Shown piece after piece: positions 55,543 to 62,823 of a stretch of DNA of 64,000 nucleotides (positions within the stretch are counted from its first letter, which is position 1; the number at the start of each line of letters is the position of its first letter). The position numbers and the translations under genes are program-made. The notes below the pieces were generated by a model. It was not told the origin of the DNA, did not search any database, and saw only the letters and a program-made list of their open reading frames with translations. This DNA is from Lenzites betulinus (lineage: Eukaryota > Basidiomycota > Agaricomycetes > Polyporales > Polyporaceae), in assembly GCA_022264855.1 (NCBI GenBank), contig JABYQU010000004.1, positions 248,001 through 312,000 of the forward strand, read 5' to 3'.

Positions 55543-57307
55543 ATGTCAACGCCTCTGGAAGTCGCACTGGCGTCGGCCGAGTACTGGTGGGTCCCGTTTG
55601 CATATACGCGTTGTCTCGCTTACAAACATACTTACCTCTCAGGGTATACGCCGTACGATTCAATAACGCCCTGGTCCTTGTGGCATACAGTACGTCGCTT
55701 GCGCGCCACCATGCCATTTACCGCCGGAGATCATCGAGCTGATCGAGTCTGTCACCAGCGACCCTGTACTACGATTACCTGCTCACGTTCTCGGACGAGG
55801 TTGAGTACTTCTGGAAGTCAGCCAGCCTGTCGATCATATCCGTTCTCTTTGTTGTGAATCGATACCTTGGCCTCCTCGGACCATTACCCCTCTTAACAGA
55901 GTACTTTGCTAATCTCCCGGAACATGTGCGTCGCTGGTTAGCATGAGCCTGCGCACGACTTTCACTGACGCGGACTTGGTTTGATAGACGTATGTGGACG
56001 TCCACCATGTCCGGTTCCTGCAACCCTCTGATGGCAACGGGATACGCATAGATGTCGAGTGCTCCAGACGTATCACCAGGCGTATGCTTTGGCTAGCCAG
56101 GGGATCGTGGCTGGTGAGTGATATTGTTGTTGGCCCGGTGGCTATATTCACCACCAGAGCAGTGATGCTCGTAATTCGCACATACGCGTTGTACAATCGA
56201 AGTCGGCGTATTCTCTATCTCCTCGTCGGAACACATGTCTCTGGCGCCCTCGTATGCCTCGTAAGTAGCGTCAAAAGTATTCACTACCGCCGTATGACGA
56301 ACACCGGGATAGGTCGCTGTCCTCTTGAGTGTTAGCCCTGTAAACACAATCACACCCTTGCCCTTCACATACGCTGCCTGCGATCTGTCTCTCACGAACA
56401 ACCAGTACGTGCTTGGCCTACTCTTTCGGGTGCATACGATTGAACAGACCACATCCACAGAGCTAACCGTACGCTCTTCTCTTCCCAGAGATGAGTAATA
56501 TTCTTCGGCACTCACGGGTGATTAAAACAGATTTGGTCATTGCGTGGAGCGCTATGCTCTGGTTCGACACTACAATCTTCACACTGACCCTGGTGCAAGC
56601 GCTGCGGATGCGCCGCCATTTCCCAGGCGGGCTTCTCGAGGTCATGTTTCGGGATGGTCAGTATTCCCTTATGCTTCCAATTTCTACATGATAGGACAGA
56701 TTCTGACACGGTCCTCCTTCGCGAACTCTTTCTGTTCCAGGGACCGTGTACTATGGGTCAGTGCATCGCGGAGGACGCGGTGATAGCGCAGGCGTTCTGA
56801 CCTTCCGGTGACAGATTCATGGTGGCGTCCAATGTATCAAACATCATTACGTTCCTGGTAATGTCTTCCCTCACATTGCCCGCGATGATCAGAATATACT
56901 GATATGTTGCATTGAATAGATCACTCGAGTGCGTACGTTGAACAGACCCAACAGATATTCTCTAACCCCGACATTGCAGACCAACTCACCCCTGAAGGGA
57001 ATGGACACTACACTCACCAACGTGTGCGTGGGTTTCATGATCCCCTTTCTGGCATGGCGAATTTGAGCGTATTCATAGACTGTCGACAACGCTCACCTCG
57101 CGGATCATCCTCAACTTGCGCAATCCCGAGCTCCAAAAACCTCGACAGAGTCAGGGGGACGATCTCACGAGTATCTGGTATACCACGACAGCTGCGCCGG
57201 TCACAACTGCTACCACCACCACCAACACCACCACGTACGGCTGCGCATTGACAGATGCCGATACGCTCCCGGCGGAGACGCAAATCAGCGAGGTTGATAG
57301 AGTATGA
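55543..57307 (+). CDS. DUF6533-type multi-helix membrane protein, array copy A
   Basis: Family typical of agaricomycetes, function unknown; the seven-helix pattern recalls receptors. The start at 55543 (exon 55543-55586) is MSTPLEVALASAEYW. Core segments are TLYYDYLLTFSDEVEYFWKS, FVVNRYLGLLGPLPLLTEYF, CRVLQTYHQAYALASQG, VMLVIRTYALYNRSRRILYL, HLVIAWSAMLWFDTTIFTLT, MVASNVSNIITFL and TNVLSTTLTSRIILNLRNPE. Frame is kept only by three microexons: 2 nt at 55988-55989, 8 nt at 56462-56469 and 9 nt at 56920-56928. Each is flanked by AG and GT, with introns of 51-62 bases. The C-terminus is Thr-rich. The same layout in copies B and C supports the model. Minor junctions near 56260-56340 are less certain. 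Confidence 0.85.
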
Positions 57308-58494
57308 CCGGTGTCTTCCACGCGGCTGATTCCGAGCGTCGCACCAGCGAGTTTATGGATCTCGAGGTATGCGACCCGTGCGAACGATACTGTACGAATT
57401 CTCAAGTATGTAGTAGCGATGTATCCAGTGAACATGTACACTACCCCACATTACTATATACGTAAGTTTCGTTTCGTAGTGAACGCGGAACAACAGTACT
57501 AACGCACACGTTCTACAGGATAGATTGTTTTTCCTTCTAGGATGAGTGCCACACACTATATGCGGCAACTTCGGCCGCGCTTGCACTGCCAAGCCGCCGG
57601 CCGGTGGTTTCCTGGACCCATTGACAGGCCCTGCCTCACTCGTGGAGTCAGCTCGGGGTGCTGGGGTGGCATATAAGCATCTTCGCTCTCACCACCATCG
57701 CGGTAACCGCAGAAACCTGGCGGAGGCACTTGCCGAAACACATCGCAAGACGTCCGGTTCCTACATCAGCTTGACACGTCCCTCGAGGTGGCGCGTCTAG
57801 TCTGACACTGTCAGGTACGGTTATTCGACGTGGGTCGCCCAGCCCAGATTTGATCAGATCTTAGGCGGGACGGTCCCGTCGACGATCCATTCTACACCTG
57901 CAGGTCGAGCCGACCCAAACCCCCCTCGCCCTGTGCGATAGCCACATAGGCTTACACAGGACCCTGTCGACGACACTTAGCGCTCAAGAGGTGTCGTCCA
58001 ACCGCTCGCCCTGATCGACGGACGGTAGCGGGCCTGGAGATGCAAAACTGAGTATTGTATGGTACGCCGCCTCTGTTCTCAGGTCCGGGTGCGCTTCTGC
58101 GCGCGTATTCTGGGTGTGGGATCGCGGAGGTTTCGGCGTGCACACCGCCGCTGTGCTAGAGCGGCCTTTGGAAGAGCTGTTACGGCAAGCGCAAGTGCCG
58201 GAGACTTAGAGTTCGTTGCGCTGGACACTGCGGCAGGCTTCCGCCGCCACCGCGCAACCCCCCTACTTGTTCTTGTTCGCGTCCTGAGCGCCGGCGGAAA
58301 AATCTTCCATAGATGTTCAAAGAGCAGCTTGACTGATTTGCGATGGCCGAGGCCTCCTTCCATGGCCGTCCTGCCGCCCTCCCTTTCTTTCTGCGCGCTC
58401 GACGGGGGTTCTCAAAAGGCTGACGGGAACTCCCCGCAGATCTCCTACGCCCTTGTGAATCCATACCGTCTTCCTGAGGAGTGTGCAGCGCAAC
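57308..58494. other. Spacer between array copies A and B
   Basis: A TATAAG lies near 57672, too far from the copy B start (58495) to be its obvious promoter. No helix or DUF6533 segment is visible, so this does not look like a decayed fourth copy. Frames are short. Confidence 0.45.
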
Positions 58495-60159
58495 ATGTCC
58501 TCCGTAGACTCTGTAGCGTCGTACTTGTGAGTCCCCGTCGACGGCGTAGCGAAGCGGCGACGTCGCTTACCGAACCTTCTTTCCTTTTTAGTGTGTACTC
58601 CGTACGATGGGATACGTCGCTAACACTGTCCGCTCTCAGTAAGTTCGGGTCCGACCGCCCCGCCAGACACCGTTGACAGCCCAACAGCCATCCTGTACTA
58701 CGACTACGTGATGACGCTGTTTAACGAGATCGAGTACTACTGGATCCCTGCGTCGCCCTCACTCTCCTTCCTCTTGTTTGTGGTGAACCGGTATATTGGT
58801 ATTCTCGGACCTATCCCCGTGTTTTTCGAATATTTCTCCGAGGTGTCCGAACATGTGAGTGCTTCGGGCCTTGCTTGCATACTACCCCCTACTAACGAGT
58901 CTGCAGCGGTCAGTCACGACCAGCCTGAGGCACCTGCTACATACTGAAGCTTGCTCACCTGTAGATGTCGGCAGCTCCAACTGTACCATCAGATTTTCGC
59001 GATGTTGAGCCAAGCAGTCGTTGCGAGTACGTCCGTCTTGCCATAGCTCTGCATTGTCCTAGCTGTTCATGCCTCCTGTAGTTCTACTCATCCTACGAAC
59101 GTATGCGTTGTACAACTGCAGTAAACGGATGCTTGCACTGCTTATTAGCATGCATCTCGGGGGCGCCATACACTGTCTAGTACGTCACTGTTCTTCCTTC
59201 CCTCCAAAGTGCGCAAGGCTTACCCCGTTACCTCAGACTGCAGTGTTAACAAGCAAGAGTCCTTTGACCACCGAAGTCCCGCTTGGATTCCGTTATTCCC
59301 TCTGCAATCTATCACTCACAGACGACCAGTGAGTATGCCACGCTAGTGCTGCGCGTTGGACGTTAAGAGCTGACAGGTTCTATCACAATTAGAGGCGTCC
59401 GTAAGTTAGAGCCACCGTCAAGATTGCGTTGACTGACCAATCCTAGATCTCGCGTTGGCATGGAGCGCCATGTTGTGGTTCGACACGATAATATTCCTCT
59501 TAACACTGTATAAGGCAGTGCAAATGCGGAGAGAGATGTCGGGAGGGCTGTTAGCGATATTATTTCGGGATGGTGAGCTGTCTGCTTTCCCGTTACGTGA
59601 CATGTTTGCTCAACGTCTTTCTCCCCAGGGACTATATACTATGGGTAGGTACATGACGGCAGCGAACGGAGTGCCTTGGGCTCACCTTGACCCAGTATCC
59701 TGGTGGCCGTGAACATGGTCAATATCGTCACTTTCTTAGTAAGTACTATCTATGTATACATCCGCTCTCCCTGACGAATCTTCTACAGGAAACGCCGGTA
59801 AGTTCAGTTGCCCTCAACCCTCGAGTCAATGTCCCACGCAGACCCCCCGCCAGCCAAACACGCCTATGAAGGGCATGGCGACCACGATGACGAACGTGTA
59901 GGTTCCCATGAACGATAACGACAAACGTGCACTCGTTAATCTCCGCACCAGGCTCGCGGTGACCCTCACGTCTCGCCTGATGCTCAACTTGCGAGACCCA
60001 GACCTACAAAGACGTGGCCGGCACGCAGAGACGAGTCGAAACGAGGGGTGGTCCATGGGCCAATTCACCTCCAGGATGATGTCCTTCCGATTCCCGACAA
60101 CCGATATCGAGAGCCGGACGCTAGACGATCTTGGCACTTCGTGTACCTCGGACTCATGA
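58495..60159 (+). CDS. DUF6533-type multi-helix membrane protein, array copy B
   Basis: The start at 58495 (exon 58495-58526, 32 nt) gives MSSVDSVASY, spliced to VYSVRWDTSLTLSAL. Core segments are TILYYDYVMTLFNEIEYYW, LLFVVNRYIGILGPIPVFFE, CRQLQLYHQIFAMLSQAVVA, VLLILRTYALYNCSKRML, HLALAWSAMLWFDTIIFLLT, NMVNIVTFL and TNVLAVTLTSRLMLNLRDP. It ends LDDLGTSCTSDS at 60159. Microexons are CG at 58907-58908 (preceded by a perfect CTACTAAC branch site), AGGCGTCC at 59393-59400 and GAAACGCCG at 59789-59797. Flanking introns are 46-64 bases. A receptor-like role is only an inference from topology. Confidence 0.85.
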
Positions 60160-60887
60160 GAACATAGAATCCCGAACATACGTAATAGGTGCGTTGACTA
60201 CGCGCGGCAACGTTGCCCACCCCCCCGCCCTGTACCTTACTCACCTTTATCGCGCCCTCTCCAGTTACCTAGTAGCACGAAGCTGTATCACATTGTACAA
60301 GAATCCACTCGCATCACTTGACTGATCGCACGCTGGCCGCTTGCGCAACTGCGCTAGAACGCGCGGCGGCAATATAGACCGAATCGGCCGCAGACCGCAG
60401 GCCGACTGAGACTCGCTCGATAAATTCATGGCACTTATATACCGAGCGCGGCGGAGTGCCTGCCAACGTACCTCCTGCGATCAGCCCAAGGCCCAGCAGC
60501 CACGGAAACCTGTCCCGTAAGTGCCTGGCTGCCCCACTATAACCGCGTTCGCGTCCGGGCGCTCACCCCCACCCGGTCCCATGCCGCCCTCCCGCTGCCC
60601 AGGCCCGAGCGCTACGCCGCCACAAGCCGCCGCCCCTCGGCCGTGTTTGACCAAATTGGTCGATCACGTCCAGTTCAAGTTCTGTCGGAGCCGGAGTGGG
60701 CAACTTGTCAGTCTTATGCGCCGCGCCGTTCTCCCCGCGCACCACGAGCATCAGTCCGGTGGCAAAGGGTCCGCTGCGCTATCAGGCTGTGGGCTATGCG
60801 CAGGACTGTCATATGAAGACGACCGTGGCGAACATACGAGCGGTACTATTGCTGGGGCGAGCCCGCCCTTTCGTCGTCCTGCCCCTC
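60160..60887. other. Spacer between array copies B and C
   Basis: A TATATA lies at 60436-60441. The C-rich stretch about 60540-60660 is low-complexity. The frame at 60521-60916 is not the gene; the DUF6533 start is the later ATG at 60888. Confidence 0.45.
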
Positions 60888-62823
60888 ATGGCAACCGCAT
60901 ACTCATCCTCGGCTGAACTGTGAGTGATTTTCTGCGACGCGAATTTCATGGATCTGACGGTTGTGTGCGGGGTACAGAGGCAAGGGCGTCCTGTTGAACA
61001 ATTACATGGCGGCAGCTTCGATTAGTGAGCCTATGTGTCTCGTTCCGTGGACCACCGACGGCTGATATGAGTCCGCCGCAAGCTATTCTATACTTTGACT
61101 ATAGCTTAACGGTGGGGACTGAGATCGACCGCTTCTGGGGGAAGGCGAGGCTCTCCGCCGCGTCCACTCTTTTTGTCCTGAACCGCTACCTGGGCCTCCT
61201 GGGCATCGTCCCTGTAATGCTGGAGTATTTCGGACACTTTCCGCCACAAGTAAGCCTTCCTGCCGTAAAGTCAAATGTTACTCTGACATATATACCGTCA
61301 TTAGCGGTTAGCATCTTCGCGCCCCTGTGCCGCTGTGTCCGGTCCTAATTTTGGTGCAGATGTCGACAACTTCAGAGCTATCATCAATATTACTCTATCG
61401 CCATGCAGGTCATCGTTGCATGTAAGCCAGCCCACATCCAGCCAGCGTCCGGGCACGGTTCATGACCGGCAATCTGTCTACCCAGCGATATTGTTAGTGC
61501 GGACTATGGCGCTATACGAGGGGAACAAGCGCATCCTGTGGGTCTTGGTCGTCGTGTGTTTCTCGGTGGGATTGGTACGCCGGACGCCATGCGTATCTCG
61601 GGCCATCTGATGCTCAACGCTGTTAATCAAGCTCACCGTGCTGGTCATCTCCAAAGTGGTCAACCTGACGCCTGATGCCGCCACCGTGGCGGATACGCCC
61701 GCGGGCGATTATATGGGCTATTGCGACCTCTCGTTGACTGTCACGCAGTGCGTCTCTCGCGCCATACCGCTCATGCATCACGTCCTGATGAACGCCTTTC
61801 CAACAGAGGCTACCGTGAGTGCATCTCAATTGCCCTTCGGGCACCGGGACGGCGTACCTCATCGGTCATTGTAGGCTCCGTCGTGGGTTGGATCGCCATG
61901 CTCTGTGTCGAGACGACCATCTTTGGTCTCACCCTCGTCAAAGCAGTCCGCATGCGGACCAGCCTCCGCCACGGCACGATCGGGGTCCTCTTTCGCGACG
62001 GTCAGCATCCCTGTATCGATGTCATCATCGCCCGAGTCACTGACCAAGGGCGACGTGAACCGCACTCTATTCCAGGCGCGATATACTACGGGTCGGTCGT
62101 CCCTCTTCCGCCGGCGCGCGCTGCGCTGCGGCCCAGGGCCCGAGAATTGACAATGACACCCTTCCAGAGTGCTGGTCCTCGCCGGGGTCGCGAACATCCT
62201 CACGTTTCTGGTACGCCCCGCACCACCAGAATCAGCCCCCCAAATTCCTTCTGACCACCGGGCCCTGTTGTTATTCAGGCGCCCGGGGTGATGATGATCA
62301 GCTCCCATTCGTCCGCGAGACCACCTGCTGAGACCCCCTGCTATCGCCACAGATCAACGACAACGACCGCGGGATCGCGACCACACTGACGAACGTGTAA
62401 GTCCCCACCCGCTCCCCCGCTCCCGTCCGAGCCCCGGGGCCGTGCCCTCTGCCCGCGCTCGCGCTGATCCGCTTGCATTCACGCTTGATGCTGAATCGAT
62501 GACATCGCCGCCCGGCATGGACCTGCATGGACTCGGACAGCCTATCGACGACGCTCACCTCGCGCATGATCCTGAACCTCCGGGACCCAAACCTGCACCG
62601 CAGCCGCCTGCACATGGGCCGGTGGACGCTCACGCACCCGACGCAGGCTGGCGCGATGGCCCTGCAGACCGTGAGCGCGAGCGCGGACGGCGCGCGCACG
62701 CTCTCGTTCCGGGGGACGTACGGCGCCGGCGATGGCGATGGGGAGAGCGAGTGGGAGCTCGAGCCCGAGCCTGAGCCCGAGGAGGATGCCGATGCCGACT
62801 CGCGGCGGGGCTGCGCGTACTAA
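60888..62823 (+). CDS. DUF6533-type multi-helix membrane protein, array copy C
   Basis: The start at 60888 (exon 60888-60919, 32 nt like copy B) gives MATAYSSSAEL, spliced to GKGVLLNNYMAAASI. Core segments are TILYFDYSLTVGTEIDRFWG, LFVLNRYLGLLGIVPVMLEY, CRQLQSYHQYYSIAMQVIVA, ILLVRTMALYEGNKRILWVL, YCDLSLTVTQ, VVGWIAMLCVETTIFGLTLV, VLVLAGVANILTFL and TNVLSTTLTSRMILNLRDPN. The tail is longer than in A or B and acidic (ELEPEPEPEEDADAD), ending RRGCAY. Microexons are CG at 61305-61306, AGGCTACC at 61807-61814 and GCGCCCGGG at 62279-62287. It is the most diverged of the three copies. Confidence 0.84.

Follow-up and report, generated by a model that had tools for sequence, protein, structure and literature searches.

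A stretch of 64,000 nucleotides (nt) from the genome of Lenzites betulinus, a wood-decay fungus of the Polyporales (contig JABYQU010000004.1, positions 248,001 to 312,000; called the window in the following), contains three genes of the DUF6533 family, copies A, B and C, in each of which what appears to be an exon of only 2 nt lies between the exon encoding the DUF6533 domain and a downstream exon with a Cys segment. This element is present in all three copies, the reading frame needs it, it occurs throughout the family in this genome far beyond chance, and variant forms of it exist. The explanation we favour is that each of these genes carries a real and normally included 2 nt exon, to which we assign a probability of about 93%. 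Its inclusion in the mRNA of Lenzites is what we infer; support for it comes at one remove, from proteins of relatives whose contigs have no room for introns of this kind.

In copies A, B and C the upstream exon ends in phase 0, as seen by frame reading. The downstream exon starts with N TGT CG, and TGT CGx is readable only after two preceding bases. Exactly two bases stand in each copy between an AG and a GT, at the positions given in the initial annotation, which was right in all coordinates of the three exons, in the lengths of the flanking introns and in the phases of the neighbouring exons (Table 1). Between donor and acceptor the pattern AG-NN-GT is unique in each copy. With the 2 nt exon, copy B forms one open frame of 321 codons; if it is left out, a frameshift with stops results in A, B and C, just as had been claimed for its skipping. 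When the sequences were shuffled (500 trials), AG-NN-GT flanked on either side by an intron of 38 nt or more arose in 10.6% of the trials for A, 5.4% for B and 11.2% for C, and jointly in none of them.

A genome profile search with PF20151 yielded 81 matches, three of them within the window, and the downstream exon of these 81 loci was sought by an iterated profile. Loci were retained if their acceptor read AG-N-TGY, by which 16 of the 81 were dropped; in another seven no donor could be scored, and 58 remained. The best donor is in phase 0 in 57 of these, so that two bases are missing from the frame. One of the 57, C68:74471 (loci are named by genome contig and position), turned out to be a wrong donor pick and was reassigned to the upstream-fused class described below. 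Altogether, the 2 nt exon was placed in 63 of the 81 loci, in 49 by rule and in 14 by eye. The remaining 18 consist of two loci with a 5 nt exon, five with the two bases fused upstream to the preceding exon, one with them fused to the downstream exon, one whose acceptor AG has apparently been lost (C19:61452), and nine which belong to other subfamilies or were unreadable here (C1:682349, C41, C13, C22:119444, C87:784653, two on C12, C2:515544 and C44).

The bases of the 63 microexons are mostly AG (37), followed by GG and AC (nine each) and CG (three), with GC, TC, GT, CA and CT occurring once each. The codon completed by them specifies Ser in 36 loci, Gly in nine, Thr in nine, Arg in five and other residues in four. 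This residue is followed by Cys in 61 of the 63, and by Phe or Tyr in the other two (C35:359824, C19:140613). Cys is also invariant in an alignment of 33 rows, which is no independent evidence, since most of these rows were chosen for an intact junction. The introns before and after the 2 nt exon measure 49–85 and 47–77 nt (medians 60 and 58), much as introns elsewhere in copies A and B do (44–84 nt). At two loci one donor has GC instead of GT, after the exon in C23:498558 (L064) and before it in C76:621096 (L026). Pairwise identity among the 63 ranges from 12% to 96% with a median of only 27%. Such deep divergence of the copies suggests that the 2 nt exon has been retained over a long time and is probably old.

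The chance tests asked for an AG, k bases and a GT within 57 regions whose donor and acceptor were fixed, both resulting introns being at least 38 nt long. Under a relaxed rule (A, C or T before the AG and a purine after the GT) k = 2 was found in 49 of 57 regions, against a mean of 3.5 and a maximum of 9 in 200 dinucleotide shuffles. Under the stricter YAG and GTRNG it was 26 of 57 (shuffle mean 0.7, maximum 4), and with any AG and GT 54 of 57 (mean 8.5, maximum 18 in 500 shuffles). After thinning to 25 representatives with less than 50% identity, 22 of the 25 had k = 2. In the following intron, used as a control, AG-NN-GT occurred in none of 47 windows, that is, in those 47 of the 63 loci for which a donor was found there. 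Among the lengths up to 18 that were examined, k = 17 reaches its shuffle maximum (7 of 57) and k = 6 is found under the relaxed rule in 15 of 57 (mean 3.3, maximum 10). The latter was rejected as a separate exon length, as 12 of the 15 sites start at the k = 2 exon and arise from a second GT in the donor. The any-GT rule, for which shuffles were made for k = 2 alone, also raises k = 0 (36 of 57), k = 6 (34), k = 4 (17) and k = 8 (13); for k = 0 this is expected, because AG microexons stand directly beside GT. Furthermore, the branch motif CTRAY was present in 32 of 65 first and 30 of 65 second introns (shuffle means 10.3 and 9.1, maxima 22 and 19).

Variant junctions in the same genome act as natural controls for the reading of two bases. 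In five loci (C54:604934; C68:70824, 74471, 100537 and 102865) the upstream exon includes the two bases; these loci, on C68:68800-105000 and at C54:604934 (L052, L055, L043), have a phase-2 donor and a single intron. At C49:53497 the two bases are fused to the downstream exon, and two SNB1-like genes read straight through the junction. In the close paralogues C1:581903 (L065) and C1:742427 (L076) a 5 nt exon, ACAAA, replaces the 2 nt exon and adds one residue.

Protein relatives of copy B were the second source of evidence; 120 of the 146 found are listed, and all counts given here refer to these. At least ten of them, with 298 to 332 residues, lie on contigs of less than 1.4 kb. Since copy B including its introns is 1.67 kb long, these short contigs are most likely RNA assemblies. 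The Cys segment is present without an odd insertion in all ten short-contig proteins. In five of them (P0017, P0027, P0056, P0057 and P0068, on contigs of 1.1–1.4 kb) the distance from RY to Cys is exactly 21 residues, as copy B predicts, with P0057 having one residue fewer right after the Cys; the other five have a spacing of 25, typical of another subgroup. Among all 120, the spacing is 21 or 22 in 23 and different in 53, where genuine subgroups (24 to 26) stand beside insertions. By pattern the Cys motif is missing in 36, although a few of these (P0095, P0101, P0120) have an overlooked Cys, and eight could not be anchored. The view of the initial annotation that the 2 nt exon is in use is thus supported by the 63 copies in the genome, by the fused and 5 nt variants and by the junctions of the short-contig relatives.

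Several points weigh against this explanation. The RNA nature of the short contigs is deduced solely from their length, and their genes are known only as proteins. The AG-N-TGY filter builds the phase of the acceptor, though not that of the donor, into the choice of loci, and the 14 placements by eye were made knowing what to seek. CTRAY is also found in 22 of the 65 stretches behind the first donor that served as controls, and skipping yields a stop within 22 codons in just 42 of 65 loci. The donors after the 2 nt exon are weak in copies B (GTCAGT) and C (GTTAGC). Compensation at the level of U1 pairing, by which a microexon not ending in G would need a G at donor position +5, appeared in the 63 loci (14 of 14 microexons with a non-G last base have this G, against 24 of 49 others; p = 0.0004). 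With thinning of paralogues the association fades (p = 0.04, 0.15 and 0.53), and we keep it merely as a hint.

A single intron could instead end further downstream, at a phase-0 acceptor within the Cys exon, at the cost of the Cys and some residues after it. Several public models are indeed built in this way: P0028, P0039 and P0043 read SEx|TYHQ and the model P0121 of a Lenzites copy on C87 reads SEQ|YSVS, without the Cys segment. Copy B, too, has a phase-0 AG after CRQ. Yet all ten short-contig proteins keep the Cys segment, and the comparison of P0027 with the Fomes fomentarius model P0038 (89% identity) reveals a single gap of ten residues precisely at the junction, the residues RCHWIHLYHQ being dropped by the model and contained in P0027. 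A later acceptor would also leave AG-NN-GT in 49 of 57 regions unexplained, and would require an intron of 126 nt in copy A and of 110 nt in both B and C, the lengths obtained when the 2 nt exon is ignored, while the introns of A and B measure 44–84 nt. We consider it very improbable. Still less credit can be given to a single intron with an alternative phase-2 donor, located within the upstream exon or behind it. It would produce the 19 residues which the GenBank model of copy B, P0001, a hypothetical protein spanning the whole of this copy, has inserted between SEH and RCRQ, but this stretch is intron sequence translated, 57 of 58 loci have their best donor in phase 0, and no such insert is seen in the five short-contig proteins of the copy B subfamily.

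Equally hard to credit is a zero-length recursive splice point, with AG and GT lying within one long intron and no exon at all. The 37 AG microexons of the 63 would give AG|GT as well, in line with k = 0 in 36 of the 57 regions under the any-GT rule, but the frame would be left two bases short, and in the 26 of 63 loci with GG, AC, CG, GC, TC, GT, CA or CT no AG stands beside the GT. Finally, the exon might be real but optional, its regulated inclusion deciding over the gene, which skipping or retention would silence by frameshift. Regulated microexons are known in animals. Early stops upon skipping in 42 of 65 loci would fit, and the available part of one report describes a regulated microexon in Trichoderma (PMC11121469); the five short-contig relatives of the copy B subfamily show the included form only, and we regard optional use as unlikely.

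If the 2 nt exon is normally included, it would be spliced between the phase-0 DUF6533 exon and the exon predicted to open the third long helix, and its two bases would form, with the first base of the latter, the codon before the Cys (Ser, Gly, Thr or Arg in 59 of 63). It is most likely that each short intron is recognised on its own and that the two are removed one after another. They should leave in sequence because the acceptor and the next donor, 2 nt apart, cannot be occupied jointly; if the first intron is removed first, the second donor would be rebuilt as ...NN|GT. For fungal introns of such size, recognition is believed to proceed across the intron (intron definition), which would do away with the usual lower bound on exon size. 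AG is the usual end of an exon, and its excess among the microexons could aid the rebuilt donor; selection at the protein level may just as well account for Ser, Gly and Thr in front of the Cys. It is also conceivable, though quite doubtful, that the 2 nt exon acts as a shared gate for some 60 receptor-like genes which rely on one demanding splice step. In that case a change in a splicing factor could act as a common switch for all of these genes, for example at fruiting.

Ultra-short exons as such are an already known kind, and the published systems are compared here as far as the available portions of the cited papers describe them. The closest is the 1 nt exon of CYP621A in Fusarium, published in February 2026 and regarded by its authors as without precedent in fungal genes (PMC12940212). 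It likewise is an internal exon found via a clash of phases and a conserved AG-N-GT, with an intronless relative serving as length marker. Unlike the DUF6533 exon, with 2 nt, in a basidiomycete, in 63 paralogues of one genome and known from DNA sequence, it has 1 nt, concerns orthologues of one P450 gene within Fusarium and is documented by RNA reads. The 1 nt exons of plant APC11 and VPS55 (PMC4674806, PMC8831610) were also missed by annotation and have relatives that carry the base within a larger exon or are intronless, but they concern one or few gene copies in plants and come with RNA evidence. Exons of 2–5 nt in Arabidopsis, Drosophila and human, cited in PMC12940212, are of the same size class; unlike for the DUF6533 genes, nothing in the text available there indicates a multigene family. 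Many P450 genes of a white-rot basidiomycete, Phanerochaete chrysosporium, have microexons too, of 2–10 codons, the shortest exon having 6 bp (PMC1184071). In recursive splicing via RS-exons removal of the first intron would similarly form a new donor from a tiny exon and GT (PMC6224609), whereas here the two bases must remain in the mRNA. SNB1 of Coprinopsis is likewise a predicted seven-helix membrane protein with PF20151; the accessible part of its description mentions no microexon (PMC10949477), and the SNB1-like genes of the present genome read through the junction. To call exons this short very rare, as was done initially, is fair, even with 1 nt exons published for plants and Fusarium (PMC4674806, PMC8831610, PMC12940212). 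Among the titles and abstract openings listed from the open literature on DUF6533 or on fungal micro- or tiny exons, none reported a 2 nt exon in DUF6533 genes. The exon described here is the same kind of object as the 1 nt exons and was recognised by the same reasoning, in another phylum and on another scale, one position in 63 genes, and it is this family-wide scale for which no report was found.

A single genome with 63 diverged 2 nt exons, varied in their bases and donors, together with fused and 5 nt forms, provides natural variation for studying which features the spliceosome requires next to an exon too small to be contacted, and the order of intron removal. A more immediate consequence concerns annotation. 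GenBank models of the DUF6533 family (P0001, P0035, P0121 and others of P0002-P0132) are often misjoined, the intron being translated or the Cys segment lost. Public models are wrong at this junction also for copy B and for copy A, whose model P0035 is damaged at the microexon. Frames, Cys counts and expression values of these receptor-like proteins are therefore unreliable.

Regarding the origin of the exon, the upstream-fused copies formed a basal grade in a FastTree phylogeny; on this view, intron 1 would have arisen later, inserted two bases ahead of a donor already present. This order was not upheld, as with an SNB1-like outgroup the order of the classes is no longer resolved. In approximately unbiased tests with this outgroup, the fused group as a clade was not rejected (p = 0.62), nor was a group of the microexon, 5 nt and downstream-fused copies (p = 0.48) or the same without the downstream-fused copy (p = 0.41).

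The structure of the three genes in the window is given in Table 1. Copy B reaches a Pfam score of 33 bits for PF20151 (DUF6533), against a curated cut-off of 24.1. Exons 2 to 12 are equal in length in A and B (47, 167, 2, 62, 98, 92, 8, 126, 16, 43 and 9 nt), and copy C deviates in two exons only, each by multiples of three.

Table 1. Positions in the window of the 2 nt exons, their flanking introns and exons, and the genes carrying them
Feature	Position	Strand	Remarks
Copy A, 2 nt exon AC	55988..55989	+	AG|AC|GTATGT, by frame; with A56052 gives Thr
Copy B, 2 nt exon CG	58907..58908	+	AG|CG|GTCAGT, by frame; with A58965 gives Arg
Copy C, 2 nt exon CG	61305..61306	+	AG|CG|GTTAGC, by frame; with A61360 gives Arg
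Copy A, intron 5' of 2 nt exon	55926..55987	+	62 nt, GTGCGT...TAG
Copy A, intron 3' of 2 nt exon	55990..56051	+	62 nt, GTATGT...TAG
Copy B, intron 5' of 2 nt exon	58855..58906	+	52 nt, GTGAGT...CAG, contains CTAAC
Copy B, intron 3' of 2 nt exon	58909..58964	+	56 nt, GTCAGT...TAG
Copy C, intron 5' of 2 nt exon	61250..61304	+	55 nt, GTAAGC...TAG
Copy C, intron 3' of 2 nt exon	61307..61359	+	53 nt, GTTAGC...CAG
Copy A, upstream exon, DUF6533	55759..55925	+	167 nt, ends in phase 0 (PEH)
Copy B, upstream exon, DUF6533	58688..58854	+	167 nt, ends in phase 0 (SEH)
Copy C, upstream exon, DUF6533	61083..61249	+	167 nt, ends in phase 0 (PPQ)
Copy A, Cys exon	56052..56113	+	62 nt, C R V L Q
Copy B, Cys exon	58965..59026	+	62 nt, C R Q L Q
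Copy C, Cys exon	61360..61421	+	62 nt, C R Q L Q
Copy B, whole gene	58495..60159	+	14 exons, 966 coding bases, 321 codons and stop
Copy A, first 13 exons	55543..57023	+	
Copy C, first 13 exons	60888..62396	+	

The three copies also share further short exons, given here in the order A, B, C: a second microexon, 8 nt long (56461-56468, 59393-59400 and 61807-61814), an exon of 16 nt (56741-56756, 59629-59644 and 62076-62091) and one of 9 nt (56920-56928, 59789-59797 and 62279-62287).

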